A stretch of 64,000 nt of DNA from Leucobacter chironomi DSM 19883 (GTDB lineage Bacteria > Actinomycetota > Actinomycetes > Actinomycetales > Microbacteriaceae): assembly GCF_000421845.1 (NCBI RefSeq), contig NZ_ATXU01000003.1, forward strand, positions 124,001 to 188,000. Reading direction: 5' to 3'. This document shows positions 2,720 through 39,743 of this stretch, piece after piece. Positions within the stretch are counted from its first letter, which is position 1; the number at the start of each line of letters is the position of its first letter. The notes under the pieces are model-generated. The model saw nothing but the letters and a program-made list of their open reading frames with translations. It was not told the origin of the DNA and ran no database searches. The translations under genes and the position numbers were made by a program.

Positions 2720-2757
2720 GGCAGCACGGATCGATGACGATACCCCAGGAGGCCCCG

Positions 2758-21346: not shown

Positions 21347-21390
21347 CCCCCGCACCGCACAAACCATCCTCGACCACGGGAAGACCACTG

Positions 21391-22896: not shown

Positions 22897-22926
22897 CCCA
22901 TCCACAGCGTGAAAGCACACAACCTC

Positions 22927-23175
22927 ATGAAATCTCAGCAGCCAGCCGGCGTCCCCGGCCCCGATTCCGCCTACCGCCGACACCGCCGCTTCGTGCGCCT
23001 AGGTCAACTGCTCCTGGCGCTCGGTGCGGTGATCCTCATCGTGCATTGGCTCGCGCACCTCGAAACCTTCGGCCCCGCCCAGCCCGAGGGCTGGGTCGAC
23101 CTCGTCGCCGGCTACCCGATGGGCGCCCTGTTCCTCCTCGGCGGTGGCGTCCTCGCCGGACGCAAAGCCCCTTGA
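22927..23175 (+). CDS. Small two-helix membrane protein
   Basis: The 82-residue protein has two predicted helices (LGQLLLALGAVILIVHWLAHL and LVAGYPMGALFLLGGGVLAG) after a basic, proline-containing N-terminus. The start is ATG 22927; a GTG at 22909 is in frame but lacks a ribosome site. It follows the multicopper oxidase by 30 bp and probably belongs to the same operon. I do not recognise a named family. Confidence 0.65.
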   Translation: MKSQQPAGVPGPDSAYRRHRRFVRLGQLLLALGAVILIVHWLAHLETFGPAQPEGWVDLVAGYPMGALFLLGGGVLAGRKAP

Positions 23176-23202
23176 CCTCGCCCCTGCAATACGCGGGCGA
23201 GG

Positions 23203-23841
23203 TCATCTCGCCGACGGCGGGGCGGTGAAGGCCGGCAGCAAGATCGCGTCGATGAACCATGGCGCATCGTCAGGGTCGATCCGGCCCGTGCGCACCTCCT
23301 CGGCCGCACCGTTGAGAACGACGTGCGTGGTGGTCAGCAGCCAGGACACCGGCAAGTCGGCGCGGAAGGCACCTTCGCGCTGTCCGCGCAGCAGCAGTCC
23401 GCGCATGCGCGCCTCAGCCTTCTCGTGCAGCTCGCGAATGCGGGCGGCGGAGAGTTCCTTCTGTGCCGCGGCCAGCAGGGCACGGGATTGGTCGACGAAC
23501 ATCCAGCTGGAGGCAATGAGTCGCTGGAAGGCCGCACGCGGGTCGCCGTCCAGCGGGATCTGACTGAGCACGTCCTCGGCGCGTTCCAGACTGTCTACCA
23601 GTGCGGCCTCAATGAGCTCTGCGCGAGTCTGGAAATGCCCATAAAGGGTCATCCGGCCCACTCCCGCCTCAGCAGCGATGTCGGCGACCGACGCGTCGAG
23701 GTTCTTGCGGATCGCGGTCACTGTCGCGGCCAGAATCTTTACCCGGTTGCGCTGCGCGTCGGCGCGCTGGTTAGCCGCCCGGCTCACTGTCGCCGGGCCA
23801 CGTCGAGCGCCGCCGGTCGGCTGGGCGTTCTTCGTCGCCAT
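23203..23841 (-). CDS. TetR family transcriptional regulator
   Basis: The 212-residue repressor-type protein has the TetR helix-turn-helix (ILAATVTAIRKNLDASVADIAAEAGVGRMTLYGHFQTRAELIEAAL) after a basic N-terminal tail. The C-terminal ligand domain is of a multidrug-regulator type. It is divergent from the drug-type MFS exporter gene. A widely spaced 11-bp perfect inverted repeat in the spacer is a likely binding region, which suggests control of the exporter. Confidence 0.9.
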   Translation of the reverse strand: MATKNAQPTGGARRGPATVSRAANQRADAQRNRVKILAATVTAIRKNLDASVADIAAEAGVGRMTLYGHFQTRAELIEAALVDSLERAEDVLSQIPLDGDPRAAFQRLIASSWMFVDQSRALLAAAQKELSAARIRELHEKAEARMRGLLLRGQREGAFRADLPVSWLLTTTHVVLNGAAEEVRTGRIDPDDAPWFIDAILLPAFTAPPSAR

Positions 23842-23850
23842 GCTCTACCT

Positions 23851-23918
23851 CACAAGTCGTACTGGAATGTATGAGATATTGTATTCGTTGCAACTCGTAC
23901 ACACATATACGACTTGTG
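23851..23918. promoter_or_regulatory. Inverted repeat in the TetR/MFS divergent spacer
   Basis: CACAAGTCGTA (23851-23861) and TACGACTTGTG (23908-23918) are perfect complements, 46 bp apart. Between them lies an AT-rich patch (TATGAGATATTGTATTCG) that suits one or two promoters. Two half-operators flanking the promoter core would let one repressor control both genes. Confidence 0.55.
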
Positions 23919-23968
23919 CGGGAGGTCGCCCGCCCGGGCGGCGATCCGGCAGAGAGGAGCACACGACC

Positions 23969-24007
23969 ATGACCACGACACGCACACCCCGAGGGGGTGC
24001 GACATGA
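23969..24007 (+). CDS. 12-residue coupled leader peptide
   Basis: ATG 23969 follows GAGGAG at proper spacing and encodes MTTTRTPRGGAT. Its TGA (24005-24007) overlaps the MFS start ATG at 24004, so ribosomes finishing the leader could restart on the exporter gene. Ribosome stalling in the leader could then tune exporter expression, as in known drug-resistance leaders. This is inference from layout only. Confidence 0.4.
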   Translation: MTTTRTPRGGAT

Positions 24008-25578
24008 GCGCGCCCGGCACCCCCGCGGCCCCGAAGGCCGGGGCGAGGCAGTGGTGGGGGCTCGCCGTGCTGGTGATCCCCTCGACGCTGCTGTTCATGA
24101 TGCTGACGATCCTGTTCCTGGCAGCCCCGAACCTCGCCGCGGACCTGAACCCGACGAGCACGCAGCTGCTGTGGATTCTCGACATCTACGGCTTCGTGAT
24201 GGCCGGGTTCCTCGTCGCGATGGGCGTGCTCGGCGACCGGGTGGGCAAGCGCCTGCTCATGGTCATCGGCGCGTCCCTGTTCGCTGCCGTCTCCATCGCG
24301 GCGTCCCTGACCACGATCCCCGAGCTGATGATCGTCTGGCGCGCCGTCCTCGGACTGGCCGCAGCGATGATGGTGCCCGCAACGATCGGACTGATCTTCG
24401 TGATCTTCGCCGACGCGAAACAGCGCGGCGTCGCCATCGGGGTCTGGGCGGGCGGTATCTCCGCCGGCGTCGCCCTCGGCCCACTCCTGTCCGGCCTGCT
24501 GCTGGAAGGGTTTGGCTGGCAGGCGACGTTCCTCGTCGCGGTGCCAATCATGGCGCTCGTCGCCATCGGCGCCCCAATCCTCGTGCCCGAGCACCGCGAT
24601 CCGTCGGCGAAGATCGACCTGTTCAGCGCCCTGCTGCTGGTCGGCGGGCTGCTCGCGATCATCTACAGCATCAAGCGCTTCGCCGCCCAAGAGCCCGTCG
24701 GGCCCACACTCGGGCTGCTCGCCGCAGGCGTGCTGATCGGGCTGTGGTTCACGCTCCGGCAGCTGCGCGCCAAGCAGCCCCTGCTGGACGTGCGGCTGTT
24801 CGCCAATCGCACCGTCTCCGGTGCGCTGGCGGTGTTCCTGCTCTCGGCGGCGGCACTGGGTGGGGTGTACTCGCTGTTCACCCAGTACCTCCAGACGGTG
24901 CAAGGCCTCTCGCCCTTGCAGGCGGGCCTGGCGATCCTGCCTGCGGCGGCGGTGCTGATCGTCGTCTCGACCCTCTCGCCGGTCTTCGCACGGAAGTTCC
25001 GGCCCGGGAACGTGATCGGGATCGGCCTGCTCACCCAGGTCGTCGGCTACATCCTGTTCACCCAGCTCGACGCCGGCACAGGCCTGGCGCTGGTGATCGC
25101 GAGCTTCGTGATCACCTACCCCGGCGTCGCCCCCTCGATGGCACTGACCACCGAGCTCGTGGTGGGCTCGGTGCCCCCGGAGAAGACCGGCGGCGCCTCG
25201 GGGCTGGCGACCACGGCGAACGACCTGGGCATCTCGCTCGGTGTCGCCGTCATCGGCAGCGTCGGCCTCGCCGCCTACCGCAACCGGATCGACGGCACCC
25301 TGCCCGACGGGCTCTCCCCGGAGGCCGCGGCCGCCGCGTCGGACAGCATCGACGGCGCCCTCGCCGCCGCTGCGGAACTGCCCGGCGCGCTGGGCGAACA
25401 GCTGATCGCCGCCGCACAGGCGGCCTTCTCCGGCGGCCTGAACATGGCGGCGATCGTCTCCGCGGTCATCGCCGCGGTGGCCGCGATCATCGCCGCTACC
25501 CGCCTGCGTCACATCCGTCCCACCGGGCAAGCGCAGCGCCTCGCTGAGGAATTTCACACCAGCCAGGAATACCCCTAA
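24004..25578 (+). CDS. MFS transporter, DHA2 drug-exporter type
   Basis: The 524-residue membrane protein has about 14 helices, as in the EmrB/QacA group. Motif A is represented by MGVLGDRVGKRLLM, and the first helices show LFLAAPNLAADLNPTSTQLLWILDIYGFVMAGFLVAMG. Motif C appears as GISAGVALGPLLSGLLL. The gene is preceded by a GAGGGGG ribosome site and a coupled 12-codon leader, and is divergent from its probable TetR repressor. Proton-driven export of cationic drugs is the family role; the true substrate is unknown. Its TAA stop forms the centre of a copper-type palindrome. Confidence 0.9.
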   Translation: MSAPGTPAAPKAGARQWWGLAVLVIPSTLLFMMLTILFLAAPNLAADLNPTSTQLLWILDIYGFVMAGFLVAMGVLGDRVGKRLLMVIGASLFAAVSIAASLTTIPELMIVWRAVLGLAAAMMVPATIGLIFVIFADAKQRGVAIGVWAGGISAGVALGPLLSGLLLEGFGWQATFLVAVPIMALVAIGAPILVPEHRDPSAKIDLFSALLLVGGLLAIIYSIKRFAAQEPVGPTLGLLAAGVLIGLWFTLRQLRAKQPLLDVRLFANRTVSGALAVFLLSAAALGGVYSLFTQYLQTVQGLSPLQAGLAILPAAAVLIVVSTLSPVFARKFRPGNVIGIGLLTQVVGYILFTQLDAGTGLALVIASFVITYPGVAPSMALTTELVVGSVPPEKTGGASGLATTANDLGISLGVAVIGSVGLAAYRNRIDGTLPDGLSPEAAAAASDSIDGALAAAAELPGALGEQLIAAAQAAFSGGLNMAAIVSAVIAAVAAIIAATRLRHIRPTGQAQRLAEEFHTSQEYP

Positions 25579-25586
25579 GGGGTATT
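25568..25586. promoter_or_regulatory. CsoR-like palindromic operator spanning the MFS stop codon
   Basis: AATACCCC-TAA-GGGGTATT is a perfect 8-bp inverted repeat. G-tract palindromes with flanking AT of this kind are bound by CsoR copper sensors. It sits about 170 bp before the YHS/CopB genes. The centre TAA is the stop codon of the MFS gene. No csoR gene is in the window, so the regulator would be encoded elsewhere. Confidence 0.55.
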
Positions 25587-25758
25587 GTGTTGGAGGAGCC
25601 ATGTCCTAGCGAAAGCCCGAGAAGATTGTCACGAGAATGCGGGAGCGAGTCACCATAATGAGTGGCAGATACATGCAACTACAAGCCGCCGGGCGCTCAC
25701 TTGCGATCTGATCCGTATCCGATCGAACCGTAATCAACCAAAGGAAGAGATCTACCTG

Positions 25759-26028
25759 ATGACTGCATACGAGAACCTCAACCTCACCGACACCTCCGCC
25801 ACGGGTGGCAGCTGCTGCGACCATACGCCCAGTGCGGAGACCATCGCCCAGACGCCGGCCGATGCGATGACCGAGTGCCAGGTCATGGCCGGCACCCCGG
25901 TCGTGAAGGCCGACGCTGAGGCCGCCGGACTCTACCGCGACCACAACGGGCAGCGGTACTGGTTCTGCTGCGCGGCCTGCGGGCCCCTGTTCGACGCCGA
26001 CCCCGACCGCTACGCCTACGCCGCCTGA
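25759..26028 (+). CDS. YHS-domain metal-binding protein
   Basis: The 89-residue protein has an N-terminal GGSCCDH cluster and a YHS-type core (ECQVMAGTPVVKADAEAAGLYRDHNGQRYWFCCAACGPLFDADPDRYA). The CC-x2-C cluster and the acidic end match YHS domains, which bind Cu, Hg or other soft metals and are often attached to or encoded near P-type ATPases. AAGGAAGAGA precedes ATG 25759. It lies 105 bp ahead of the CopB-type ATPase and may hand metal to it. Confidence 0.82.
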   Translation: MTAYENLNLTDTSATGGSCCDHTPSAETIAQTPADAMTECQVMAGTPVVKADAEAAGLYRDHNGQRYWFCCAACGPLFDADPDRYAYAA

Positions 26029-26133
26029 CGGCATCTGGTTCCGCGCTCCCGACGTGCGGACGTGCACGGGAGCGCGGAACCTTCGCCCCGGTCTCGCCTC
26101 TGGGCTGGGGTGACGAACGAAGGAGACGAGACC

Positions 26134-28323
26134 ATGAGCAACGATCCCTCGACACGATCGCACGCGCATCCTGAGCACGTGGACGTTCAGCACGCGCACC
26201 ACGACGAGCCGAACACCCACTCCGGTCACCACTCGCACGACCACCACCAGAGTCACGGCGAGCCTTCCAGCCATCACCACGACGCCCACGCGCACCACGA
26301 GGGACACGGCGGACATGATCATGGGCATGCCGGACACGGGGATCACGTCGGGCAATTCCGGCGCTTGTTCTGGATCATGCTCGTGCTCGCCGTGCCGGTG
26401 GTGGCCTGCAACGACATGTTCGCCCACCTCGTCGGCTATCAGCTGCCCGAGGCCGCGTGGGTGCCGTGGGTGTCGCCGATCCTGGGCACGGTCGTCTACC
26501 TCTGGGGCGGCAGGCCGTTCCTCTCGGGCGGGCTGAGCGAGATCCGCTCCCGCAAGCCGGGCATGATGCTGCTCATCGCACTGGCGATCACCGTCGCATT
26601 CCTCGCCTCCTGGGGTGCGAGCCTCGGCATGCTGCACCACGAGCTGAACTTCTGGTGGGAGCTGGCGCTGCTGGTTGTCATCATGCTGCTGGGGCACTGG
26701 ATCGAGATGCGCTCGCTCGCGCAGACCACCTCCGCCCTCGACTCGCTCGCCGCGCTGCTGCCCGACGAGGCCGAGAAAATCGACGGCAACGACGTAGCAA
26801 AGGTCGCTCCTGCTGATCTGGCCGTCGGCGACGTGGTGATCGTGCGCCCGGGTTCCTCGGTACCCGCTGATGGCAGGATCGTCGACGGGGCGGCCTCGAT
26901 GGACGAGTCGATGGTCACCGGCGAGTCGAAGACGGTGCGCCGGGAGACCGGCGATCAGGTGGTCGCCGGCACCGTCGCCACCGACTCCGGCCTGCGCGTC
27001 GAGGTCACCGCCACCGGCGACGACACCGCCCTCGCCGGTATCCAGAAGCTCGTCGCAGACGCTCAGGCGTCCTCGTCCCGGGCGCAGCGGATCGCCGACA
27101 CCGCGGCGGCGTGGCTGTTCTGGTTCGCCCTGGGCGCGGCGGCAATCACCGCCACTATCTGGTCGCTCGTCGGGCTGCCCGACGCCGCCGTGGTGCGCAC
27201 GATCACCGTGCTGGTCATCGCCTGCCCGCACGCGCTCGGCCTGGCGATCCCGCTGGTGGTGTCCATCGCGACCGAACGCGCCGCCCGCGGCGGAGTGCTC
27301 GTCAAGGATCGCCTCGCGCTGGAGTCTATGCGCACCGTGGATGCGATTCTGTTCGACAAGACCGGCACCCTCACCAAGGGCGAGCCGACGGTGACCGCCA
27401 TCGATCCCGCCGACACCCGGACCGAGGCCGAGGTGCTGGCCCTGGCCGCCGCCGCGGAGGCCGACAGCGAGCACCCGCTCGCCCGCGCGATCGTCGGCGC
27501 CGCGCGCGCCAGGGAGCTCGACGTGCCCGTGGCCTCGGACTTCTCATCCTCCCCGGCGGTCGGCGTCAAGGCGACCGTCGATGGAATCGTCATCGAGGTC
27601 GGCGGACCGTACCTGCTCGACCAGCACGGGGCGGACGAACTCCCCGTCGCCGACACCTGGCGCGAAGAGGGCGCGATCATCCTGCACGTGATCGCCGACG
27701 GCAAGGTCATCGGCGCCCTGCGGCTGGCCGACGAGATCAGACCCGAGTCGCGCGAGGCCGTCGACGCGCTGCACGCCGCCGGGGTCCAGGTCGTGATGAT
27801 CACCGGCGACGCGCGGGCCGTCGCCGAGACGGTCGCGCGGGATCTCGGCATCGACCGCGTGTTCGCCGGGGTGCGCCCCGAGGACAAGGCCGCCAAGGTC
27901 GCCGAGCTGCAGCACGAAGGTCGCCGGGTCGCCATGGTCGGCGACGGCGTGAACGACGCTCCCGCACTCGCCCAGGCCGACGTCGGCATCGCGATCGGGG
28001 CGGGCACCGACGTGGCGATCGGCTCGGCGGGTGTGATCCTGGCCTCCTCCGATCCCCGGTCGGTGCTGTCCGTCATCGAGCTCTCCCGCGCGGCGTACCG
28101 GAAGATGAAGCAGAACCTGTGGTGGGCGGCCGGCTACAACCTCGTCTCCGTGCCGCTGGCCGCGGGCGTCCTCGCGCCGATCGGCTTCGTACTGCCGATG
28201 AGCATCGGGGCGATCCTCATGTCCGTCTCCACCGTCGTCGTCGCCCTCAACGCGCAGTTACTCCGCAGGCTCGACCTCACCCCAGAGGCCAGCACCGCCC
28301 GGATCCTGGATCGCTCAGCTTGA
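26134..28323 (+). CDS. Copper-translocating P-type ATPase, CopB (CPH) type
   Basis: The 729-residue pump lacks a heavy-metal-associated domain. Instead it has an N-terminal tail of about 75 residues packed with histidines (runs such as HSGHHSHDHHQSHGEPSSHH). The channel motif is ACPHALGLAIPL, the CPH signature of P1B-3 pumps linked to Cu(II)/Cu(I) export. The phosphorylation site is DKTGTLTKGEPT, the phosphatase motif MDESMVTGESK, and the hinge VGDGVNDAPAL. ATG 26134 has AAGGAG upstream. With the YHS protein it forms a copper-export unit under the CsoR-like site. Confidence 0.93.
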   Translation: MSNDPSTRSHAHPEHVDVQHAHHDEPNTHSGHHSHDHHQSHGEPSSHHHDAHAHHEGHGGHDHGHAGHGDHVGQFRRLFWIMLVLAVPVVACNDMFAHLVGYQLPEAAWVPWVSPILGTVVYLWGGRPFLSGGLSEIRSRKPGMMLLIALAITVAFLASWGASLGMLHHELNFWWELALLVVIMLLGHWIEMRSLAQTTSALDSLAALLPDEAEKIDGNDVAKVAPADLAVGDVVIVRPGSSVPADGRIVDGAASMDESMVTGESKTVRRETGDQVVAGTVATDSGLRVEVTATGDDTALAGIQKLVADAQASSSRAQRIADTAAAWLFWFALGAAAITATIWSLVGLPDAAVVRTITVLVIACPHALGLAIPLVVSIATERAARGGVLVKDRLALESMRTVDAILFDKTGTLTKGEPTVTAIDPADTRTEAEVLALAAAAEADSEHPLARAIVGAARARELDVPVASDFSSSPAVGVKATVDGIVIEVGGPYLLDQHGADELPVADTWREEGAIILHVIADGKVIGALRLADEIRPESREAVDALHAAGVQVVMITGDARAVAETVARDLGIDRVFAGVRPEDKAAKVAELQHEGRRVAMVGDGVNDAPALAQADVGIAIGAGTDVAIGSAGVILASSDPRSVLSVIELSRAAYRKMKQNLWWAAGYNLVSVPLAAGVLAPIGFVLPMSIGAILMSVSTVVVALNAQLLRRLDLTPEASTARILDRSA

Positions 28324-28665
28324 GAGCCCGTGAAACTTCCCCATCATGCCTATGCGGTGGCTAGCTACTCTGCAATTTGCACGACTCCTAGCTCGGGCTG
28401 CGAAAAGTGCTAACGAAAGTGCTAAGCAGCCTGTAGGTCGGGGTATCGCGGTGGAGTTATCCACAGGTTAGATGCCGTAGATCGTTGATTTCATACAGTA
28501 GAATGCTCGCCCGAGATTCGCGGCGCGAGGGGGTCGAGGTCAGTTCAAGTCCCCTCGCGCTAGCGACTGAACCATCGCCTCAAACGGCTCCGCTCTCCCC
28601 ACAAGCAGGTGCAATCGGGTTGCGTGAGGTTGCACTGTGCAACCTCACGCAACCCCGGTGCCGGG
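28324..28665. other. Non-coding spacer with two perfect inverted repeats
   Basis: No gene is supported. The first repeat is GCGCGAGGGG (28523-28532) with CCCCTCGCGC (28551-28560) around an 18-base loop containing a TTCAAGTCC motif like a tRNA T-loop, but no cloverleaf can be drawn. The second is the 39-bp palindrome described separately. The left part is AT-richer than its surroundings and includes an isolated DnaA-box-like TTATCCACA at 28458-28466. Confidence 0.55.
28617..28655. repeat. 39-bp perfect palindrome
   Basis: GGGTTGCGTGAGGTTGCAC (28617-28635) is followed by one T and its exact complement (28637-28655). It lies 11 bp past the stop of the minus-strand hypothetical gene. A perfect 19-bp stem with a single-base centre is far beyond chance. 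It could be a terminator stem, a recombinase or replication-protein site, or the target of a dimeric regulator. Confidence 0.85.
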
Positions 28666-29109
28666 TCAGAAGAGCGTCCGGCAGTCGCGCCTGCTCGGCG
28701 AGGAGTGCCGCCGCGTAGGTGCTGGCAGCCGTCGGGCTGGTGGCTGCAGTTCCTGGGGTTGCAGACGTTCGGCGAGCACGCGTTTCACGTCGCTCCATAG
28801 ATCAGGCCGATCATGCCGGGCGTCGCGTTCGCATTCCTGGCGCAGGTCGTGGAGGAAGCGGGCGCGTCGGTCTGGGGTGGAGAGCTGGGCTTCGTAGAAG
28901 CCGTCGAGGTTGTAGTGCGCGATGAACCCGAAGCAGCCGTGAGTGGAAAACCCGCCGTACAGGGATCGGGTGAAGCGCTCACGCGGGAAGTCAGCAGCGA
29001 TGAACCGCAGCAGCGAGTTCACGAACCGGGCCTTGCGCTCCGGCGTGCCCGACTCCCACCCCGACGCCTCGAACTGGGCTGGCTGGTACCTCGGTGCTCC
29101 CGTGCTCAT
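28666..29109 (-). CDS. Hypothetical protein of the mobile element
   Basis: The 147-residue soluble protein starts at ATG 29109 behind a strong GGAGGAAGGGA ribosome site. The first 110 residues look folded, with aromatic and charged segments (GWESGTPERKARFVNSLLRFIAADFPRERFTRSLYGGFSTHGCFGFIAHYNLDGFYEAQL cut by helices). The C-terminal 35 are Pro/Arg-rich. I do not recognise its family. It is divergent from the methyltransferase gene, with a 334-bp control region between them, and may belong to that modification or restriction-avoidance unit. Confidence 0.6.
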   Translation of the reverse strand: MSTGAPRYQPAQFEASGWESGTPERKARFVNSLLRFIAADFPRERFTRSLYGGFSTHGCFGFIAHYNLDGFYEAQLSTPDRRARFLHDLRQECERDARHDRPDLWSDVKRVLAERLQPQELQPPARRLPAPTRRHSSPSRRDCRTLF

Positions 29110-29443
29110 GGCGCGCGTCCCTTCCTCCGTGGAGTCTCGGTCAGGAAGAAGGTGCGCGTAGACAGCTACGGCGCAACGAGCAGATCGGCGCGAGCAGCGT
29201 GTGACTTCTGAGGCGAGTGATGCACGCGTCAAACCGCAGATGCAAGACGCGTGGAAGGTCAGGAACGAGACGTACGACGAGCTGATCGCCTGCGCCTCGG
29301 CGAGGTCAGGCTGGCGTGCGTCGGCGACGGAACTTGCGAGTGAGAGTTCCGAGCGTTCGAGGTGGGCGCGGGGTGCACCTGAGAGGTGACCATCCGGCAG
29401 CACTGGGCGTGCGGGCCGGGAGCACCGATCACCGGGAGCCCCG
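29110..29443. other. Divergent control region before the methyltransferase
   Basis: No gene is supported in this 334-bp stretch. It contains an 8-bp inverted repeat, CACGCGTC (29223-29230) and GACGCGTG (29246-29253), and must hold promoters for both flanking genes. I cannot pick clear -35 and -10 boxes. Confidence 0.4.
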
Positions 29444-30226
29444 ATGCGAGAAGACCCCGCCCCAAGCGCCGCGCTTCTCCGCGTCGGGTCGTTGTTCTCC
29501 GGCTACGGCGGTCTCGACCTCGCCGTCGAACATGCCCTCCACGCGCAGACGGTCTGGTTCTCCGAGATCAGTCCCGTGCAGCGCGTCTTCGCGCACCACT
29601 GGCCGGACGCGCCGAACCTCGGCGACATCACCACGATCAACTGGGCGGACGTGCCGCCGGTGGATATCCTCTGCGGCGGGTTCCCCTGTCAGGATGTCTC
29701 GACTGTCGGGAAGATGGCCGGCCTCACACCTGGCACCCGCTCCGGGCTCTGGTCGCACATGGCCGACGCGATCGACCGGTTGCGCCCCGAGTACGTCGTG
29801 ATCGAGAACGTGCGCGGTCTGCTCTCCGCATCCGCCGTTCGTGCAACCCCCGAAGGAGTCTCCGATGCAACCCCTGACCCCGCAACCCTTCGCGATCTGG
29901 AACCCGGCCTCTGGGGTGTGGGAGACGAGCCAGCTCGACCTCTCCGGGCGCTCGGCGCCGTACTCGGAGACCTGGCCGACCTCCGGTACGACGCGCGCTG
30001 GATCGGCCTACCCGCTTCCCTCATCGGCGCACCGCATCCCCGGTTCCGCGTCTTCGTTCTCGCGCATCGCGCCGATTCTCTTTCGCACGCCGCTCGCCTC
30101 GGACGCTTCCCGCGGCGGGGAGAGCGGGAACAATCGCGCTCTCTCATCAGGTCATCGACCTCGCCTTGCACGGGCCGAATGGCTCGACCGAATGTCGGAA
30201 CGAGTCGGAGAGTCTGTGGTCGCTGA
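29444..30226 (+). CDS. C5-cytosine DNA methyltransferase, catalytic part (alpha chain of a split enzyme)
   Basis: This 260-residue chain has the catalytic core that transfers a methyl group to C5 of cytosine. Motif I (SLFSGYGGLDLAVEHAL) binds S-adenosylmethionine, motif IV (GGFPCQDVS) carries the catalytic Cys, motif VI is VIENVRGL, and motif VIII is IGAPHPRFRVFVLAH. The target-recognition region, motif IX and motif X are absent from this frame. They lie in the overlapping next frame, whose own start is at 29865. After about position 30066 the alpha frame loses family resemblance and stops at 30226. Confidence 0.85.
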   Translation: MREDPAPSAALLRVGSLFSGYGGLDLAVEHALHAQTVWFSEISPVQRVFAHHWPDAPNLGDITTINWADVPPVDILCGGFPCQDVSTVGKMAGLTPGTRSGLWSHMADAIDRLRPEYVVIENVRGLLSASAVRATPEGVSDATPDPATLRDLEPGLWGVGDEPARPLRALGAVLGDLADLRYDARWIGLPASLIGAPHPRFRVFVLAHRADSLSHAARLGRFPRRGEREQSRSLIRSSTSPCTGRMARPNVGTSRRVCGR

Positions 30227-30506
30227 TAGATGGCATCTTCACCGCTGGGGACGATACGCCGACGCCATAGCCCGATGGGAGTACATCACAGGGAGTGCGG
30301 CTCCGAGCCCGGCACTCCTTCATGAGTCCGGCGGACCGAGACCGGCCCCGGCGTTCCTCGAATGGCTGATGGGACTTGAACGGGGCTGGGTTACGGGCCC
30401 GGCTTACGTACTGACCGCGAACCAACAGATAACCGCGCTCGGCAACGGCGTGCTCCCGCTCCAAGCGGCCGCGGCTCTCGAAGCCCTCCTGCGACAATGG
30501 GAGTAA
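29865..30506 (+). CDS. C5 methyltransferase C-terminal/target-recognition chain in an overlapping frame
   Basis: The 213-residue chain starts at ATG 29865 with GAAGGAG 6 bases upstream and overlaps the alpha chain by 362 bp in another frame. Its first part has SAPYSETWPTSGTTRAGSAYPLP, a pattern I know from C-terminal parts of phage and actinobacterial C5 methyltransferases. TPLASDASRGGESGN and a motif IX-like FLEWLMGLERGWVTG follow, and the end is motif X-like ALGNGVLPLQAAAALEALL. It should complete the enzyme in trans, as in the two-chain enzymes M.AquI and M.EcoHK31I. A simple frameshift is the main alternative. Confidence 0.75.
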   Translation: MQPLTPQPFAIWNPASGVWETSQLDLSGRSAPYSETWPTSGTTRAGSAYPLPSSAHRIPGSASSFSRIAPILFRTPLASDASRGGESGNNRALSSGHRPRLARAEWLDRMSERVGESVVADRWHLHRWGRYADAIARWEYITGSAAPSPALLHESGGPRPAPAFLEWLMGLERGWVTGPAYVLTANQQITALGNGVLPLQAAAALEALLRQWE

Positions 30507-30525
30507 TTCGACGGAAGGAAGCCAG

Positions 30526-30594
30526 GTGTCCCGCTCAAGTCCTCTGACGCGCTCATGGGGAGCCCGCTCTCTGATCTGGCCGGGCTCACCATGA
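30526..30594 (+). CDS. Possible 22-residue leader ORF before the AraC gene
   Basis: GTG 30526 follows GGAAGGAAG and its TGA (30592-30594) overlaps the AraC start ATG 30591 by ATGA. The ORF spans the left arm and the loop of a 20-bp inverted repeat. Coupled translation through a hairpin is plausible, but the peptide itself has no recognisable features. Confidence 0.35.
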   Translation: MSRSSPLTRSWGARSLIWPGSP

Positions 30595-30601
30595 GCGCGT
30601 C
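30546..30601. repeat. 20-bp inverted repeat around the AraC start
   Basis: GACGCGCTCATGGGGAGCCC (30546-30565) pairs with GGGCTCACCATGAGCGCGTC (30582-30601) with one mismatch and a 16-base loop. The right arm contains the preferred AraC start codon at 30591. It may be an autoregulatory operator or an RNA switch that hides the start. Confidence 0.65.
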
Positions 30602-31553
30602 AGCGATGAGTAGCGGGAACGATCGGCTTTCGCTGGCGAATCAGGACCTGGTGGCTACTGGTGGCTACCAGCCACTGCTCGCCCGCACCCGCACCTTTCA
30701 CCGACCAGTCGGCCCCGAGACCTATAACTGCGTAAAGCTCGCCACCGTGCGCGACGGATCGGCAATCGTTTACAGCGAGTTTGGGGAGAAGCACGCGAAG
30801 GTCGGTGACGTGCTGCTGCTCGGCGCGAACGTGCTCTGCGGCGCGCAACCCGAGGGCCACGTCACCGTCACGGTGATCTATCTCGATCTCGATTTCATCC
30901 TGGATCAGTTCTTCTGGCAGTACATCGATATCGTCAAGGATCGCTTCGCGTCGCAGAGTGTCGCGGACACGATCTACACCGAGCCCGCACAGTTGATGGG
31001 GCTTGGTGAGGATCGGATCGGGATGCTGATGCCGTGGCTTGATGAGTTGGTCGCGCTCAGCGTCGACGGGCAGTACCGGGAACGATTCCACCGGATGCAG
31101 GCGCTCTGGCACGCGGTGATCGACCAGGTGTCCCCGTTCATCCACGTCTCGCCGACTCGCACTCTTCCGGCTCAGCGGGCGCGCACGCGCCCGTCGGTCC
31201 CGCGTGGGCGGCGGTTCGCACCGCTGCGGGCCGAGGCCCGTGCTGTGCGAGAGCTCCTGGCCTCTGATGTGCGCCGTGCATGGTTGCTCTCGGAACTATC
31301 AGGAGCGGTACACCTTTCCGAAAAGCAACTCGTCCGAGTGTTCACGAACGCTTACGGGAAGACGCCGCTGGCATATCTCACGATGCTCCGTGTTGAGGAG
31401 ATGGCGCGGCTCCTTCGTGAGTCTGGAGTGTCGATTGCCGAGGCCGGCAACCTGGTTGGGTGGGTGAGTCGGAATCGTGCTGCGACGGCTTTTCGGGAAT
31501 GCACTGGTCTCACTCCGGGCCGGTACCGGGCGATGCAAGAAAAATCGTTGTGA
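30591..31553 (+). CDS. AraC family transcriptional regulator
   Basis: The 320-residue protein ends in the two-helix-turn-helix AraC domain: VHLSEKQLVRVFTNAYGKTPLAYLTMLRVEEMARLLRESGVSIAEAGNLVGWVSRNRAATAFRECTGLTPGRYR, where the second recognition helix region is shown by WVSRNRAATAFR. The N-terminal part is a cupin-like sensing domain (GDVLLLGANVLCG, HVTVTVIYLDLDFI). The start is ATG 30591, set by the overlap with a short upstream ORF; ATG 30555 and 30606 are alternatives. Its target genes may be in the conjugation operon that follows 232 bp later. Confidence 0.85.
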   Translation: MSASAMSSGNDRLSLANQDLVATGGYQPLLARTRTFHRPVGPETYNCVKLATVRDGSAIVYSEFGEKHAKVGDVLLLGANVLCGAQPEGHVTVTVIYLDLDFILDQFFWQYIDIVKDRFASQSVADTIYTEPAQLMGLGEDRIGMLMPWLDELVALSVDGQYRERFHRMQALWHAVIDQVSPFIHVSPTRTLPAQRARTRPSVPRGRRFAPLRAEARAVRELLASDVRRAWLLSELSGAVHLSEKQLVRVFTNAYGKTPLAYLTMLRVEEMARLLRESGVSIAEAGNLVGWVSRNRAATAFRECTGLTPGRYRAMQEKSL

Positions 31554-31565
31554 CCAGCATTTAGA

Positions 31566-31585
31566 CATTCTCTGCGCAGGGAATG
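31566..31585. terminator. Short hairpin after the AraC gene
   Basis: CATTCTCTGCGCAGGGAATG is a 20-base palindrome with one non-pair, starting 13 bases after the AraC stop. There is no T-run, so it may be a weak terminator or an operator. The rest of the gap to 31785 holds nothing else I can name. Confidence 0.35.
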
Positions 31586-31785
31586 GACGCAGTTCGCCCG
31601 ACCGCGGGAACGAATCTCTCATGGGCTGCTATCGGTAGTCCTACGTCAGGTGCCGTTGGGTCCTGACGGCCAACCTACCTCTTACTGTTCGCTGACCGTC
31701 TCGACCCGCCGCCGGCATCCCCGGCGTACCTCGCTTGCACGGGCACCCCGTTCTCGGGCCGCCCCGATGACGAGAGGAGGCGGTC

Positions 31786-32892
31786 ATGGCTGCGAGGAGA
31801 ACCCCCGAAGAGGCGCGCGCCGCGCGGGAGGCGAAGCTCGACGAGGTGCGCGAGCAGCTGAACGCGCAGGTCGAGAAGCTGGTCACCGGTGAAGACTGGA
31901 AGCAGGCGCTGACGTTTGCGGCGAAGTTCCGGTCCCGCAGCGTGAACAACTCGTGGCTGATCTTCGCCCAGCATCAGGCCGCCTGGGAAGCCGGCCGGGT
32001 GCCCGAGCCGATGCCGACGTACGTGGCCGGGTTCCGGCAGTGGGAGCAGCTCGGCCGCCAGGTTCAGAAGGGGCAGAAGGGGTACGCGATTCTCGCGCCG
32101 GTGACCGGGAAGTTCGCGTCGAAGACTCCTGCTGGTCCGATGTCGTGGCGCAAGCTCGCCCCGAAAGAGCAGCCGAAGCCGGGCGAGGTCGTCAGGTCGC
32201 GGATGATCGGCGCGAAAGTCGCCTACGTCTTCGACATCTCTCAAACCAGCGGCCCGGATGTGCCGCTCCCGCCTTCGCCGCAGCTTCTCGAAGGCGAGGC
32301 CCCGGCGGGGCTTCGTGATGGGCTGATCCGGCAGGTTGCCGAGGCTGGGTTCCAGTTCTTGCCGGTGCCGCACGAGGGCATGATCCACGGCGCGAACGGC
32401 AGCACGAACTTCGACACTCGGCAGGTGGCGGTGCGGACGAATATGGACGATGCCGCCCAGGTGAAGACCCTCGTGCACGAGCTCGCGCACGTGAAGATGC
32501 ACGGCCCCGACCAGGAGGAAGCCCGCCAGCATCGCGGGATCGGCGAAGTCGAAGCCGAGTCCGTCGCGCTCATGGTCGGGGCCGCGCACGGGATGGACAC
32601 GACCGCCTTCACGATCCCGTATGTGTCGGGGTGGGCGATGGCCGCCGACGGGAAGAACCCGATCCAGGTGGTGCAGGCGACCGCGGAGCGGGTGCGGAAG
32701 GTCGCCGTCGAGATCCTGGATCGGCTCGACACCGAACAGCTTGGCGACGGCACCCCGCCGGGCCTCACCCGCGAGGGTCCCGAAGTCTCGGCGGCGAAGC
32801 AGGTCGAGCGTAAGCCGTCGGCCCGCTCGTCCGCGCGGAAGCCAGCTGCGGCACGGTCGGCGCGTTCCTCGTCGCTGGTGCGGGGGCTGTGA
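31786..32892 (+). CDS. ArdC-like antirestriction protein with zinc peptidase domain
   Basis: The 368-residue protein starts at ATG 31786 behind GAGAGGAGG. Its N-terminal half has the ArdC-like single-stranded DNA-binding layout (SVNNSWLIFAQHQ, YVAGFRQWEQLGRQVQKGQKGYAILAP). The C-terminal half carries a metalloprotease motif (TLVHELAHVKMH) with a downstream glutamate in GEVEAESVALMV. ArdC proteins protect incoming conjugative DNA from host restriction. It heads a run of overlapping genes for primase, DUF2637 and conjugation proteins. The Ser/Ala/Arg-rich tail is probably disordered. Confidence 0.85.
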   Translation: MAARRTPEEARAAREAKLDEVREQLNAQVEKLVTGEDWKQALTFAAKFRSRSVNNSWLIFAQHQAAWEAGRVPEPMPTYVAGFRQWEQLGRQVQKGQKGYAILAPVTGKFASKTPAGPMSWRKLAPKEQPKPGEVVRSRMIGAKVAYVFDISQTSGPDVPLPPSPQLLEGEAPAGLRDGLIRQVAEAGFQFLPVPHEGMIHGANGSTNFDTRQVAVRTNMDDAAQVKTLVHELAHVKMHGPDQEEARQHRGIGEVEAESVALMVGAAHGMDTTAFTIPYVSGWAMAADGKNPIQVVQATAERVRKVAVEILDRLDTEQLGDGTPPGLTREGPEVSAAKQVERKPSARSSARKPAAARSARSSSLVRGL

Positions 32893-33797
32893 TGGACGTC
32901 GAACAGCTCCTCGCGCCGGTCGCCCGCATGAGTCTCGCGGACGCCGCCCGCCACTATGTTTCGCTGGGGGTGCCGGTGTTTCCTTGTGTGCCGGGTGAGA
33001 AGCGGCCGCTCGTCGCGCATGGTTTCAAGGATGCCAGCACCGATCCCGCGCAGGTTGAGGCGTGGTGGCGGCGGTGGCCGGATGCGAACATCGGCATCCC
33101 GACCGGCCCCATCTCGGGGATCGAGGTTGTCGATGTCGATGTGAAGGGCGACCCGCCGCGCGGTCCCGCCTCTTGGCAGCAGGCCACCGAGGCGGGCCTG
33201 CTCGATGGGTGGGCGGTGCAGGTCGTCACCCCGTCGGGCGGGTTGCACGCCTATTATCCGGCAGCCGCCATCGAGCAGCGGTCGTGGGCGTCGGGGGCGG
33301 CGCAGCTCGATTTCCGAGGCACCGCTGGTTACATCGTCGCCCCGCCGTCGAGAACGATCATCGACGGCGAGACGGTCGCGTATCAGCTCCTCGACCTCGC
33401 CACTGGCGACGTGCATCCCGTCGACGCGGGCGCGCTGCGGGAGTTTCTGGACCCGAGGCCCGTGCGGTCGTCGTGGGAGGCGCGCCCGTTCCGCGGCACT
33501 GTGGAGGAGCGGGCGAAGCGGATCGCGGCATGGCTGGAAGGGCAAGGCGAAGGCGAACGGAACCAGGGCCTGTTCTGGGCGTCGTGCCGCCTCGCGGAGA
33601 ACGGCGCCACATTGGCGGAAGCGTTTCAGGCGCTCGGGCCGGTTGCGGAAGGGATTGGCTTGCCGCCGCGGGAGATCGAGCGCACGATCCGCTCCGCCTA
33701 CCGCACTCCGAACACCACCCCGGCAGCACCCGCACCTGCCACGGCGCGCCCGGTTGCGCAGCGTGCCCCAGTTGATCGAGGGCGGGTGCTCGCATGA
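32892..33797 (+). CDS. Bifunctional DNA primase/polymerase (Prim-Pol domain)
   Basis: The 301-residue protein has the archaeo-eukaryotic Prim-Pol fold used by plasmids and phages. Markers are GVPVFPCVPGEKRPLVAHGFKDAS, the metal-binding IEVVDVDVKG aspartates, SGGLHAYYP and a QLDFRGTAGYIVAPPS strand. A C-terminal helical primase-accessory segment follows (NQGLFWASCRLAENG). It could prime replication or complementary-strand synthesis after transfer. ATG 32892 shares a base with the upstream stop. Confidence 0.9.
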   Translation: MDVEQLLAPVARMSLADAARHYVSLGVPVFPCVPGEKRPLVAHGFKDASTDPAQVEAWWRRWPDANIGIPTGPISGIEVVDVDVKGDPPRGPASWQQATEAGLLDGWAVQVVTPSGGLHAYYPAAAIEQRSWASGAAQLDFRGTAGYIVAPPSRTIIDGETVAYQLLDLATGDVHPVDAGALREFLDPRPVRSSWEARPFRGTVEERAKRIAAWLEGQGEGERNQGLFWASCRLAENGATLAEAFQALGPVAEGIGLPPREIERTIRSAYRTPNTTPAAPAPATARPVAQRAPVDRGRVLA

Positions 33798-34660
33798 ACA
33801 TGAGGAGGGAGCGCCGGGGTGGCTGGCTCGCCGTGGTGACGGCGGTGGCGGGGACGGTGTTGATCGCGTGCGGGGCGTTCTGGCTTTCCTTCATTGCGCT
33901 GGCCGATCTCGCCCGCCGCTCCGGGATCGAGGAGGGGCAGGCGTGGGCGTGGCCGCTGATCGTGGACGGCGTCATCGTCGTTGCGACCGTCGCCGTCGTC
34001 GCGCTCGCCGGCACCCGCACCGCCTGGTACCCCTGGATGCTGCTCATCGCTGGAGCTGGGTTGTCGGTGACGGCGAACTCGATCCACGCGATCGTCGCCG
34101 CCGATGCGGATGTGCCTGCGGTGCTCGCGGCGTCGGTTGCGGCAGTGCCACCGCTGGTGCTGCTCGCGATCACGCACCTCACCGTGATCCTCACCCGCCA
34201 CCAACCCAAACCGGCCCCTGAGACGGCTGCTGAGGAAGCCGCGGAACTGCACGTCGAGGCCGCGGAGCGGCCGGGCGGGCCGGTGCCGGTGGCGTCGCTG
34301 GAACCGGCGCTCCGAGCGCCGGTGCTCGCTGCGGTGCTGGCGCCCGATGCGGAGCCCGGCGCCGAAGCGGGTGATCCGCCGATGCCAGAGCAGGGGCGGG
34401 ATGGGTGGTCGCGGCGTGAGGTGGCGGAGGTGCTGCGGGCGGGCGGCTGGTCGAACAAGAAGATCGCCCGCTACCTCGACGTGCACCCCTCGACCGTCGG
34501 CCGCTGGCTCCCGCAACCCAGCCCCACGCCGGAAGCCGAGCCCGGCACCGAACAGCCAGTCATCGCTATGCCAACGACCGATGCAGCAGCCGCGACGGCT
34601 GCAGATGACCCCAGAGACGAGGAGGACCCGTCATGTACCACGAACACGGCCCCGAAGTAG
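33794..34660 (+). CDS. DUF2637 membrane protein with C-terminal helix-turn-helix
   Basis: The 288-residue protein has four N-terminal membrane helices (from VVTAVAGTVLIACGAFWLSFIALADLA to ASVAAVPPLVLLAITHLTVIL), typical of DUF2637 spread proteins of actinobacterial plasmids. After an acidic Ala/Pro/Glu linker comes a helix-turn-helix (WSRREVAEVLRAGGWSNKKIARYLDVHPSTVGRWL). These proteins are linked to intramycelial plasmid spreading or conjugal transfer. The ATGA overlap with the primase gene and the overlap with the next gene indicate coupling. Confidence 0.87.
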   Translation: MNMRRERRGGWLAVVTAVAGTVLIACGAFWLSFIALADLARRSGIEEGQAWAWPLIVDGVIVVATVAVVALAGTRTAWYPWMLLIAGAGLSVTANSIHAIVAADADVPAVLAASVAAVPPLVLLAITHLTVILTRHQPKPAPETAAEEAAELHVEAAERPGGPVPVASLEPALRAPVLAAVLAPDAEPGAEAGDPPMPEQGRDGWSRREVAEVLRAGGWSNKKIARYLDVHPSTVGRWLPQPSPTPEAEPGTEQPVIAMPTTDAAAATAADDPRDEEDPSCTTNTAPK

Positions 34661-35109
34661 CGGAGGCGGCGCGGTCGCGTCTGCATCCCGCGCTCGCTGC
34701 GGCGATGAACGCCGAACGAACCTCGCCGGGCGGGCCTGAGCAGGTGGAGGCGGAGCGGTCGATGCTCGCCGTACACCGCGACCCCTCCCTGACCGGGAGC
34801 GACCGCGCCGAGCGCGACACGGTAGAAGCCGAGCCGGATGCTGAGGCGAAGCGGCGGACGCAGATTCGGTGGGTGCGGCCGACCGAGCTGGCGATGCAGG
34901 GCGGCGCCCGCGCGACCGGGTGGGGGCTCGATCTGCGGGCCGAGCTCGCCCAGCGCCTCCGCGACGCCCGCGCCGACCGCAAGCAGGACCGCGCCGAACA
35001 GCGTGCGGTCCGGAGTGAGCGGGCATCGCGATTGCCCGATCTGTCGATCCGGGGCCGCAGACGCCAGACACGACCGGAGCCCGCGCGTTCGGGGATGGGG
35101 CTGAGGTGA
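34633..35109 (+). CDS. Charged hypothetical protein of the transfer operon
   Basis: The 158-residue protein is very rich in Arg, Ala and Glu, with long helical stretches (RAELAQRLRDARADRKQDRAEQ). There are no membrane segments or cysteines. GAGGAGG lies upstream of ATG 34633, and the gene overlaps the DUF2637 gene by 28 bp in another frame. The function is unknown; basic helical proteins in this position may be relaxosome accessory or partition factors. Confidence 0.7.
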   Translation: MYHEHGPEVAEAARSRLHPALAAAMNAERTSPGGPEQVEAERSMLAVHRDPSLTGSDRAERDTVEAEPDAEAKRRTQIRWVRPTELAMQGGARATGWGLDLRAELAQRLRDARADRKQDRAEQRAVRSERASRLPDLSIRGRRRQTRPEPARSGMGLR

Positions 35110-35202
35110 TCCGCCATGCACGAGTCAGCAGCCCGGTTCGCGCAGGACCTTCCCGGCCCCAGGCACGCGGGGCGCACCTGCCATGTAGGAGGTGCCGTCA
35201 TC

Positions 35203-36081
35203 ATGAACCAGACCCGCACGAAGAGCACCCCTGCCGCACGTCCCGAACGGGATGCGCGGTGGGGGTTCGAGCATTCCGAAGGGCTCCGCGCCCTGCTGAT
35301 CCGCCTGCACGAGGAAGGCCGATGGGCGTGGCGGCACGACCCCGAAGTCGCAGCCCTCATGCGGCACGCGGCCGACAAGTACGCCGCGCTCGCGCGCCGG
35401 CACGGCCTCGACCCGTGGGAAGCGGCCGCCGCGGCGTTCGACGCGATGCGCACCGGCGCCGTGAGGCGCGCCGACGACCCCTGGGCCGTCATCACCCGCG
35501 CAGTGAAAGTGACCTGCATCGCCGAGGAACGCGCGAACGGGCTGCTGTGCTCCGTGCATCAGGCGCGGCGACCGAAGTTCTCCACCCACCACGACGCAGA
35601 GCGCTTCTCGGACCGGGAGAACCCGCTGACCGACTACCACCACAGCCTCACAATCCCCGCCCCCGACCTCATCGAGGAACCCGAGCACGACGAGACCCCC
35701 GCCCGGGTGGGGCAGGCCGTCGAAGACGCGGTCGCGCTGTTCCATCTGCTCGGCTGGCCGGTCGAGGCTGCACGGGGCGGGATCGAGTACATCATCACCC
35801 GGCTCGCAGAATCAGCGTCGCGGGCTTCCGCGTTCGAGTCGCTGCGCCGCGACTACCACGCCCGCGCCCTCCTCGACATCCCCGCCGCCTCGTGGCTTGC
35901 GATGCTGCGGGTGGCGCTGGGGACGCCGGACCCGAACCAGGCGCACACCAGCGCCGCACGCGGCATCCTGCACCGCCTGGTCACCGGCGAACCCCTCCGC
36001 GCGCTCCTCGCCGACGACCGGGTGCTGTCGGAGGTGGTGCTGTCCACCCCAGACGGAGGTGGCTGCCATGGCTGCCAGTAG
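35203..36081 (+). CDS. Hypothetical protein of the transfer operon
   Basis: The 292-residue soluble protein is helical, with conserved-looking segments WGFEHSEGLRALLIRLHEEGRWAWRHDPEVAALM, ADKYAALARRHGLDPWEAAAAAFDAMRTGAVR and WAVITRAVKVTCIAEERANGLL. The early part resembles sigma-factor-like helical folds (weak). ATG 35203 has AGGAGG upstream; an in-frame ATG at 35116 also has a ribosome site, but the added residues look non-coding. It overlaps the ParB-like gene by 14 bp. The family was not recognised. Confidence 0.65.
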   Translation: MNQTRTKSTPAARPERDARWGFEHSEGLRALLIRLHEEGRWAWRHDPEVAALMRHAADKYAALARRHGLDPWEAAAAAFDAMRTGAVRRADDPWAVITRAVKVTCIAEERANGLLCSVHQARRPKFSTHHDAERFSDRENPLTDYHHSLTIPAPDLIEEPEHDETPARVGQAVEDAVALFHLLGWPVEAARGGIEYIITRLAESASRASAFESLRRDYHARALLDIPAASWLAMLRVALGTPDPNQAHTSAARGILHRLVTGEPLRALLADDRVLSEVVLSTPDGGGCHGCQ

Positions 36082-37171
36082 CCCGGGGCATATCGAGCTG
36101 GAACGCTCCCTCGACTCCATCACCGTCGGGAAGCGCCACCGCACCGACCTCGGCGACATTCCGGCGCTCGCCGAGTCCATCCGTGCAGAGGGCCTGTTGC
36201 AGCCGATCACCGTCACCCCGGACGGGGTGCTCGTCTGCGGGCGCCGCCGCCTCGAAGCGCTGCGCCTGCTCGGGCAGCGCTCCACGAACGTGTGGGTGCG
36301 GTCGAACCTCTCCGGCCGCCTCTCCCAGCTCCTCGCGGAACAGAACGACAACTCGCTGCACAAACCCCTCTCCCTGATCGAAGCCGAATCCCTCTACCGG
36401 GAGCTGAAGGTCGTGCTCGCCGAAGACGCCGCCCGCCGGCAGGCCGCAACACGGTTCGGAGCCGACGGCGAGAATCCGCAGGATTCTGCGGAAGTCCACG
36501 GTGCCGTCGAATCGACGGCACCGCGCTCCGCCGGGGAAGCCCGGGTGCAGGCCGCCCGCATGGTCACCGGGCACGGATCGCAGACGATGCTCGAACAAAT
36601 CGGCAGATTGAAGGATCTCGCAAACGACGACACCCGACCCGAGCACATCCGCGCCCAGGCCGTCGAGGAGCTGGCGCGGATCGAGGCCGGCGGGAAAGTG
36701 CACGGCGCGCACCTGCGCATGAACACCGCCCTCTCCCTGCACGAGCTCGACCGGATCGCCGTCAACCCCGCCCAGCCGGACCCCGTGCGCATGCAGGCCG
36801 CCGCCTCTGCCGAGCAAGTGCGTGCCGCAGCCGCCAGGGAGGCACGGACGGCGGAGCTCGCGCAGCTCGCCGCTGCGGCGATCGCCCGCATCACCTCCAC
36901 GGGTCGCAAGAAGGGCAAGAAGCCGGTACGGCCGGTGGAGCGTCCGAAGCTGACGCTCGTGGTGCTGCCGCCGCGCGCGTTCGTCGCGCTCTGGGCCGAC
37001 ATGGACGGCTGGACCCAGAAATACGACCCGGGCACCCTCGCCGCGGAACTGACCGGGGCGGAGTGGGAGCGCGCCGAAGCCGTGCTCGCCGAGACCATCG
37101 CGTTCTTCGCCCTCATCCGCGCCGCCCGCGAAAACGCTGCGGCGGGCAGCACGGAGGTGCAGGCCGTCTAA
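36068..37171 (+). CDS. ParB N-terminal-domain protein
   Basis: The 367-residue protein starts with a ParB/Srx nuclease-type domain (HIELERSLDSITVGKRHRTDLGDIPALAESIRAEGLLQPITVTPDGVLVCGRRRLEALRLLG). The GRRR phosphate-binding box and a SLIEAESLYRELK helix are present. The middle contains a helix-turn-helix-like region (ARRQAATRFG), and the C-terminal part is specific to these elements. ParB-type CTPases bind centromere-like sites. No ParA gene is adjacent, so it may act as a regulator or in plasmid partition with a distant ParA. Confidence 0.85.
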   Translation: MAASSPGHIELERSLDSITVGKRHRTDLGDIPALAESIRAEGLLQPITVTPDGVLVCGRRRLEALRLLGQRSTNVWVRSNLSGRLSQLLAEQNDNSLHKPLSLIEAESLYRELKVVLAEDAARRQAATRFGADGENPQDSAEVHGAVESTAPRSAGEARVQAARMVTGHGSQTMLEQIGRLKDLANDDTRPEHIRAQAVEELARIEAGGKVHGAHLRMNTALSLHELDRIAVNPAQPDPVRMQAAASAEQVRAAAAREARTAELAQLAAAAIARITSTGRKKGKKPVRPVERPKLTLVVLPPRAFVALWADMDGWTQKYDPGTLAAELTGAEWERAEAVLAETIAFFALIRAARENAAAGSTEVQAV

Positions 37172-37258
37172 ACCTGCCTGCCGGCGGCTACGAGCCGCCG
37201 GCTGTGCGTGTGCACCTTCCGGGTACCGAACTCGCCCGTTCGCCGGAAGGAAGCCCGT

Positions 37259-37921: not shown

Positions 37922-37937
37922 CGAGGACGGCTCGGTG

Positions 37938-39370: not shown

Positions 39371-39453
39371 GGGCTCGGCCACCGGGCCTGCTGAGTGCAC
39401 CTGCTTGTCGGACGGATCGCGTCCGCTTCACCGACCGGCAGGAGTGCCCAACC

Positions 39454-39726: not shown

Positions 39727-39743
39727 CCGGGTGGTGGTTCAGG

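Follow-up and report, generated by a model that had tools for sequence, protein, structure and literature searches.

Long same-strand overlaps in which both products are under selection are, as far as we know, held to be rare in bacteria. The genes of the cytosine-5 (C5) DNA methyltransferase M.EcoHK31I are nested in different reading frames. Two-chain C5 enzymes are themselves already known: in PMC3404938, M.EcoHK31I is described as one C5 methyltransferase of two polypeptides, the large subunit of M.AquI as carrying motifs I-VIII and its small subunit the distal variable region with motifs IX and X, and artificial splits of C5 enzymes between motif VIII and the recognition domain are said to complement as well. 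The locus considered here lies in a stretch of 64,000 nucleotides of Leucobacter chironomi DSM 19883 (the window, to which all coordinates refer), and it encodes two chains, A and B. An earlier note, made from the letters of the window, had described both ORFs (A at 29444-30226, B from the ATG at 29865 to 30506) and a ribosome site belonging to the second; its ORF coordinates and the peptides it quoted are correct, and the site before that ATG reads AAGGAG. Below, O designates an ORF nested in the +1 frame of the methyltransferase. The features of the locus are as follows.

29444..30226, + strand: chain A, catalytic part of a C5 methyltransferase with motifs I-VIII, 260 aa (from the ORF and homology)
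29853..29858, + strand: AAGGAG, which probably serves chain B / O as its ribosome-binding site; it lies within chain A, 6 nt 5' of the ATG at 29865
29865..30506, + strand: chain B, the N-terminal part of O (29883-30125) and then, across the deletion, the C-terminal part of the methyltransferase
29883..30067, + strand: dual-coded core, the methyltransferase up to motif VIII in frame A and the N-domain of O in the +1 frame
30118..30267, + strand: the other half of O (...IALSHQVIDLALHGPNG...), left stranded in the third frame; its translation has no visible start codon
30125..30126, no strand: junction of the 23-nt gap relative to one-chain relatives, accurate to a few nt (DNA alignment with L015, L010, L013, L006 and L026)
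30243..30494, + strand: C-terminal part of the methyltransferase with motifs IX and X, now in the frame of B (positions 1-84 of the C-terminal model, E 5e-42)

Chain B is read in the +1 frame relative to chain A, overlaps it by about 360 bp and has an alternative in-frame start at GTG 29841 (221 aa from there). Motifs I, IV (PCQ), VI (ENV) and VIII of a C5 methyltransferase (PF00145) all fall on chain A and motifs IX and X on chain B. Chain A matches PF00145 in Pfam (4e-30), the phage family phrog_363 (2e-63) and, over residues 12-128, M.HhaI by sequence (1.2e-13), its core match spanning 29489-30067; chain B matches phrog_1008 (3e-41), so that the two chains correspond to two phage DNA methyltransferase families. 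Neither Pfam nor NCBIfam returned a match for chain B, and Pfam alone misses motifs IX-X there; no model in either collection matches O. The stretch with family-like sequence in both frames, which had been placed at 29865 to about 30066, is real, but its limits are 29883 and about 30125 only. Beyond that point and up to 30226, the methyltransferase frame has shifted into B, the continuation of O lies in the third frame, and the residues of chain A are an unrelated, out-of-frame tail.

The division of motifs I-VIII and IX-X between two chains is that of M.AquI, and the analogy drawn in the earlier note holds. The locus appears to differ from M.AquI in that its second chain is coded partly over the DNA for motif VIII of the first; in addition, motifs IX-X are found on the large chain in many relatives from bacteria. 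The locus is not of the M.EcoHK31I type, in which only motif IX resides on the small subunit and motif X on the large one, whereas both are on chain B here; in one-chain relatives neither of the two is on O. Our preferred explanation, which we hold with considerable though not full confidence, is that a widespread family of actinobacterial and actinophage C5 methyltransferases is translated in two frames, and that the window carries an M.AquI-like pair left by a 23-nt deletion.

A second copy in the same genome, on another contig (at about 303.0-304.2 kb; found as L006 and L178), displays the arrangement from which such a pair could derive. It has one open methyltransferase chain of 411 codons, which looks like an intact paralogue, with an ORF of 167 codons in its +1 frame that is homologous to the N-terminal half of window chain B. 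Downstream of this copy lies an ORF that, by eye, resembles an IS3-type transposase. Scanning of named genomes yielded 71 related bacterial loci, which were classified with models built in this analysis. One chain with motifs I-VIII and IX-X and O in the +1 frame was found in 34 of the 71, a class that includes L028, with a partial C-terminal match, and L046, in which the C-terminal part continues in another frame. Chain A followed by a fusion of O to the C-terminal part occurs in four (L008 and L009, like the window; L022, where the C-terminal match is partial; and L030). A frame switch inside the core of A is present in 22, including 14 from a Streptomyces group; nine are cut or below threshold and two have no C-terminal match. 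In 38 loci the core of A is complete and the C-terminal part has a match; these were not picked for open frames, and 34 of them are open in frame A through into IX-X.

Across the order, O was found in 18 of 297 genomes, the window's own genome counted. The 23 loci of that search comprise 14 one-chain loci, three two-chain loci (two being the window itself), three with switched frames, two cut and one without a C-terminal match; L178, L190 and L192 among them belong to the window's own genome, and L179 and L191 are one locus. A plasmid search gave seven records, one of them in a Microbacterium plasmid (94% of the query at 73% identity). A typical O sequence, taken by eye, reads M.xATP...QPFAxWNPTRGVWETSQxDL...ETWPTSGMTRxGSAYPLP...LFRTPLASDSARGGESLxQVKARRGTIALSHQIIDLALHGP... 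The block of Shine-Dalgarno (SD) sequence and start has its counterpart in relatives: an ATG is found at the expected place for O in 23 of 29 dereplicated loci, with AGGAG no more than 20 bases 5' of it in 16 of the 23. Of 167 loci, 49 have an SD-like match of at least 5 bases before the best possible start of O; among 391 background start codons there are 4. This count uses whichever of several possible starts scores best at each locus, is biased toward O to that extent and is not a main argument of ours.

Some relatives show other rearrangements. In L051, L052, L053, L056 and L179 the frame switches between motif VI and the start of O, and in L056 and L179 motifs I-VI share one ORF with O; these switches may represent decay or further rearrangement. 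The same frame-switch pattern, with matching identity, recurs in contigs labelled as a Planctomycetota MAG, Brevibacterium and Gulosibacter (L058, L059 and L060), copies that may reflect contamination or transfer. With 22 of 71 loci switching frame within the core of A, part of the sampled family may be in decay.

Relative to the five one-chain loci listed above, the window lacks 23 nt and, slightly upstream of the gap, carries 6 nt extra. On the 5' side the methyltransferase is in frame A and O in frame B; on the 3' side the methyltransferase is in frame B and O in the third frame. Because the frames are exchanged across the gap, chain B joins the first half of O to motifs IX-X. The split thus apparently arose from a one-chain ancestor through a small and fairly recent deletion, a direction of change that we infer from the alignment. 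The earlier note had argued that constrained sequence shared by the two frames speaks against a frameshift, and this argument is at least incomplete, with one chain in 34 of the 71 relatives and a gap of 23 nt separating the window from five of them. One-chain homologues of the kind that it named as damaging to its reading do therefore exist, although they differ by 23 nt and not by a single base. The same arrangement as in the window was found in Leucobacter chromiisoli (L008) and Tessaracoccus caeni (L009), with 3 and 2 mismatches over an aligned 6.7 kb. After these two copies, the next matches are 78-80% identical and do not have the split form. When 396 genomes of the phylum were searched at the DNA level, 37 gave matches, at full length only in the window's own genome. 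Overlapping frames recur in relatives, as a nested O or as two-chain phage genes; among the loci classified, the exact split of the window was seen in the two near-identical copies only.

The deletion leads directly to the strongest rival, in which the window copy is a pseudogene, a one-chain enzyme with a nested O having been broken and the overlap of A and B being merely what is left over; we place this only a little short of an even chance. The gap itself agrees with it, as do the cutting of O in two with its second half in the third frame, the lack in chain B of the most conserved segment of O, the frequency of frame switches in the family and the result that no diverged descendants of the split form were found among the related loci. 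Against it, chain A retains motifs I-VIII and chain B retains motifs IX-X behind its own SD sequence and ATG, which is the division of M.AquI and of the artificial splits that complement (PMC3404938); further and different fusions of O to the C-terminal part exist in bacteria (L030 and L182); and the element is present in three genomes with the gene unchanged in its split form. As the deletion removed or stranded the most conserved segment of O, we put the chances that the window copy may be active at about even.

A second possibility is that ribosomes pass from A into B by programmed frameshifting, so that the window yields a single long enzyme. The +1 relation of the two chains and their overlap of 360 bp would allow it, and in the 14 relatives of the Streptomyces group motif IV contains a +1 switch, fixed and seemingly programmed; in the window, by contrast, the transition coincides with the deletion and chain B has its own SD sequence and ATG, and we deem this explanation very improbable. 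In all 14 of these Streptomyces and Kitasatospora loci (L061-L074) the methyltransferase switches by +1 inside motif IV at an invariant CAAAGACGTCTC, at about locus position 3206-3213 (some 18 later in L069), and pN/pS is 0.35 before and 0.22 after the switch (14 loci reduced to 12 by dereplication). AGA is absent from the remainder of the frames examined, and the switch has the appearance of programmed +1 frameshifting at a rare codon; we found no paper on it in the open-access literature.

Whether the dual coding is real was assessed on relatives. From 72 loci, 32 have a one-chain A with O; dereplication left 29, of which 28 were used, as L013 lacked a landmark. Variability peaks at codon position A3 in the region before O (0.38), in the dual stretch that ends at motif VIII (0.32) and in the region after O (0.62). 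Between motif VIII and the stop of O the peak moves to A1, which is O3 (0.41), and A3, equal to O2, falls to 0.23. In this last region mean pairwise identity over the 28 loci is 0.59 for O, 0.44 for frame A and 0.39 for the third frame. Related sequences being treated as independent here, as in the codon tests, pN/pS is 0.47 for O, with pN below pS in 377 of 378 pairs, against 1.26 and 82 of 378 pairs for frame A; +1-frame controls outside O give 1.95 and 1.21. The slot between motifs VIII and IX, where a target-recognition domain is expected, is occupied by a module of O, and by pN/pS frame A has no sign of purifying selection there in these relatives. Bacterial one-chain relatives differ in this from M.HhaI, which the family resembles in the sequence of its catalytic part and, in a one-chain phage relative, in predicted fold: their frame-A segment from VIII to IX is less conserved than O.

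Up to motif VIII, bacterial pN/pS is 0.36 for A and 0.86 for O, compared with 1.95 in the control, and pN is below pS for O in 268 of 378 pairs; the signal of O within this dual-coded N-part alone is moderate. Codon-wise substitution in the relatives hence bears out the constraint on both frames that had been suspected from the window: up to motif VIII, O as well as A is under purifying selection, as befits an overprinted gene pair. Stops add to this picture with some reserve. The third frame contains 68 stops, in 27 of the 28 loci, but open reading in both frames was the criterion by which these loci were chosen, and the stop of O by definition closes the last region, so that absence of stops is not independent evidence. 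When the A protein is held fixed and its codons are randomised, a +1 frame of such length gains a stop in 63% of draws on average; with O fixed, frame A gains one between motif VIII and the stop of O in 86% of draws. Set against the 34 of 38 open loci, the latter value indicates that frame A is kept open even though its amino acids are little constrained. The identity of O under codon randomisation (0.27, against 0.59 in the real sequences) ignores shared ancestry and carries no weight here.

Window chain B matches 526 phage records. A scan of viral contigs found no relative with chain A as the query, five loci with chain B, and 78 and 8 loci with phage proteins as queries. The resulting 91 viral loci, in which five contigs are counted twice (L108/L162, L109/L163, L120/L164, L131/L167 and L133/L166) and others are near-identical, divide into 49 with A and the C-terminal part on one chain and O in the +1 frame, nine with A on one chain and O fused to the C-terminal part on another, 15 without a C-terminal match, 13 cut or below threshold, four with the C-terminal part in a third ORF and one in which the frame switches within A. 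In many of the one-chain phage enzymes an array of 'LLPTPxAxD' repeats starts in the +1 frame and runs on into frame A, and repeats of the O type lie between motifs VIII and IX in one-chain phage enzymes. Architecture can change with very little: L119, whose two-chain form was called by inspection and is below the classification threshold, is 99.0% identical to the one-chain L099, with one 1-nt gap, and motifs IX-X are on different chains in the two.

In Arthrobacter phages the two-chain form is found in all 11 fetched records, with an overlap of 233-266 bp, a chain A of 196-210 aa and, in all 11, a chain B that starts inside A at a GTG behind gagagggg; chain B extends past the end of A. The overlap is annotated in three of the 11 (Andrew, Juno112 and Leona), as two DNA methyltransferase or methylase genes. 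In the other eight, chain B is annotated from after the end of A, which truncates it and loses the dual-coded part, and habits of annotation can in this way hide long overlaps. Over the overlap (11 loci reduced to nine) pN/pS is 0.49 for A and 0.76 for B, with pN below pS in 29 of 36 pairs for B, as against 2.37 (1 of 36 pairs) in the +1 control and 1.25 in the third frame, and 29 of 36 pairs have less synonymous divergence of frame A inside the overlap than upstream of it. A mixed set of 34 phage loci, reduced to 10, gives 0.55 for A and 0.90 for O, with pN below pS in 30 of 45 pairs for O; the +1 control has 1.25 and 2 of 45 pairs. Dual coding is thus not a product of the split in the window: one-chain relatives have it in the form of a nested +1 ORF, and phages in that of an established two-chain arrangement; coding in two frames is real and is older than the window locus. 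A different peculiarity was seen in gp50 of Propionibacterium phage B22 (L004, locus 1186-3285), where a long insert interrupts motif IV at the catalytic cysteine, from GGSP-CFVAGTSVLTHDG... to VVHN-CQDLS; by eye, it resembles an intein.

The tests just described also bear on the idea that the +1 frame is no gene, its motifs being a by-product of a conserved methyltransferase in GC-rich DNA. Read in the +1 frame, the conserved segments DLADL and GLPAS of A do give TWPTSG and YPLP, and the lack of a Pfam or NCBIfam model for O fits. Beyond motif VIII, however, purifying selection acts on O and not on A, the most variable codon position shifts, start sites are present and phage chain B runs beyond A; the codon tests reject the by-product idea for that region, and as an account of the locus we regard it as very improbable.

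Predicted structures were obtained for two relatives. For the O-C fusion that occurs naturally in Pseudoclavibacter (L030), the AlphaFold model made with alignment A3 has a mean pLDDT of 68.6 and a pTM of 0.43. Means over 10 residues are 89-93 at residues 11-40, which are dual-coded, 68 and 83 at 41-60, below 50 at 62-91 and 88-90 at 151-200, in the IX-X part. Part of the dual-coded stretch is thus predicted to form an ordered, beta-rich unit, which would be the N-domain of O, and confidence is low for the middle of O. Foldseek returned no match for this model at E <= 0.001, a second structure comparison with the whole chain as the query had DNMT3A as its best match (Z 2.9, in the C-terminal part only), and a profile search of the PDB with alignment A3 gave no match. 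The one-chain phage enzyme L084 was modelled with a mean pLDDT of 69.0 and a pTM of 0.70; its best fold match is M.HhaI (5.4e-15), and its LPTP part has a pLDDT mostly below 60.

The preferred explanation, a C5 enzyme translated in two frames, can be phrased as a mechanism. Frame A would provide the catalytic part, with motifs I-VIII for cofactor binding and catalysis. Ribosomes would also initiate internally, at an ATG or GTG after motif VI, and read the +1 frame to produce O, presumably a small beta-rich domain over the motif-VIII region followed by the conserved 'TPxASD' module over the slot of the recognition domain. Motifs IX-X would ride on chain A in many bacteria and phages, or on the chain of O in other phages and in the window, indels switching between the two states. 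A, O and IX-X would then assemble into one enzyme, in which O may supply all or part of DNA recognition. That O is a partner of the enzyme is suggested by the modules of its type that are fused to motifs IX-X (in phages, in L030 and in the window) or lie between motifs VIII and IX of one chain (in many phages). In the window, the 23-nt deletion would have generated an alpha/beta pair, with motifs I-VIII on A and the N-part of O plus IX-X on B, at the expense of the second half of O. More tentatively, and with somewhat worse than even prospects, these loci could form a class of methyltransferases split between frames, with a recognition subunit overprinted in the +1 frame exactly on the slot of the enzyme's own recognition domain, motifs IX-X moving by indels and, in Streptomyces, motif IV completed through a programmed +1 frameshift. 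We found no description of such an overlap in open-access papers, which is weak evidence of absence.

A family of this sort is attractive because overlap, start site and selection can all be read from it, and because an indel separates near-identical phages of different chain architecture. It opens to experiment the way in which a two-chain enzyme is shared out between frames, and the question whether a recognition subunit may be overprinted on the catalytic subunit of the same enzyme. For methylome work, it implies that the annotated gene, when expressed alone, may give no activity.

The surroundings of the locus include the following genes.

13527-17108, - strand: TrwC relaxase (Pfam)
21343-22896, + strand: multicopper oxidase
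26062-28323 and 45108-47432, both + strand: P-type ATPases
30555-31553, + strand: AraC-type regulator
31786-32892, + strand: ArdC-like protein
32889-33797, + strand: prim-pol

The region from 13527 to 47432 is probably a mobile element. A query of 19.9 kb (20001-39900), which also encodes an M23 peptidase, matches at 100% (rounded), in one piece in Tessaracoccus and in two pieces in the Leucobacter chromiisoli assembly. The identity suggests that the element moved recently, and cross-contamination among the three assemblies may be an alternative. An assembly or sequencing error in the window is the least likely of all the explanations considered: the split is found also in two other assemblies, within stretches of about 100% identity, a gap of 23 nt is atypical for read errors, and a simple read error, which the earlier note had likewise discounted, is rejected. 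Its further proposal that the methyltransferase is carried by a mobile element is supported by the relaxase, the ArdC-like protein, the prim-pol and the near-identical copies elsewhere. No restriction endonuclease family appeared among the Pfam matches of 22 other ORFs, a part of those in the window. With an ArdC-like protein as a close neighbour, a role in restriction avoidance seems plausible.
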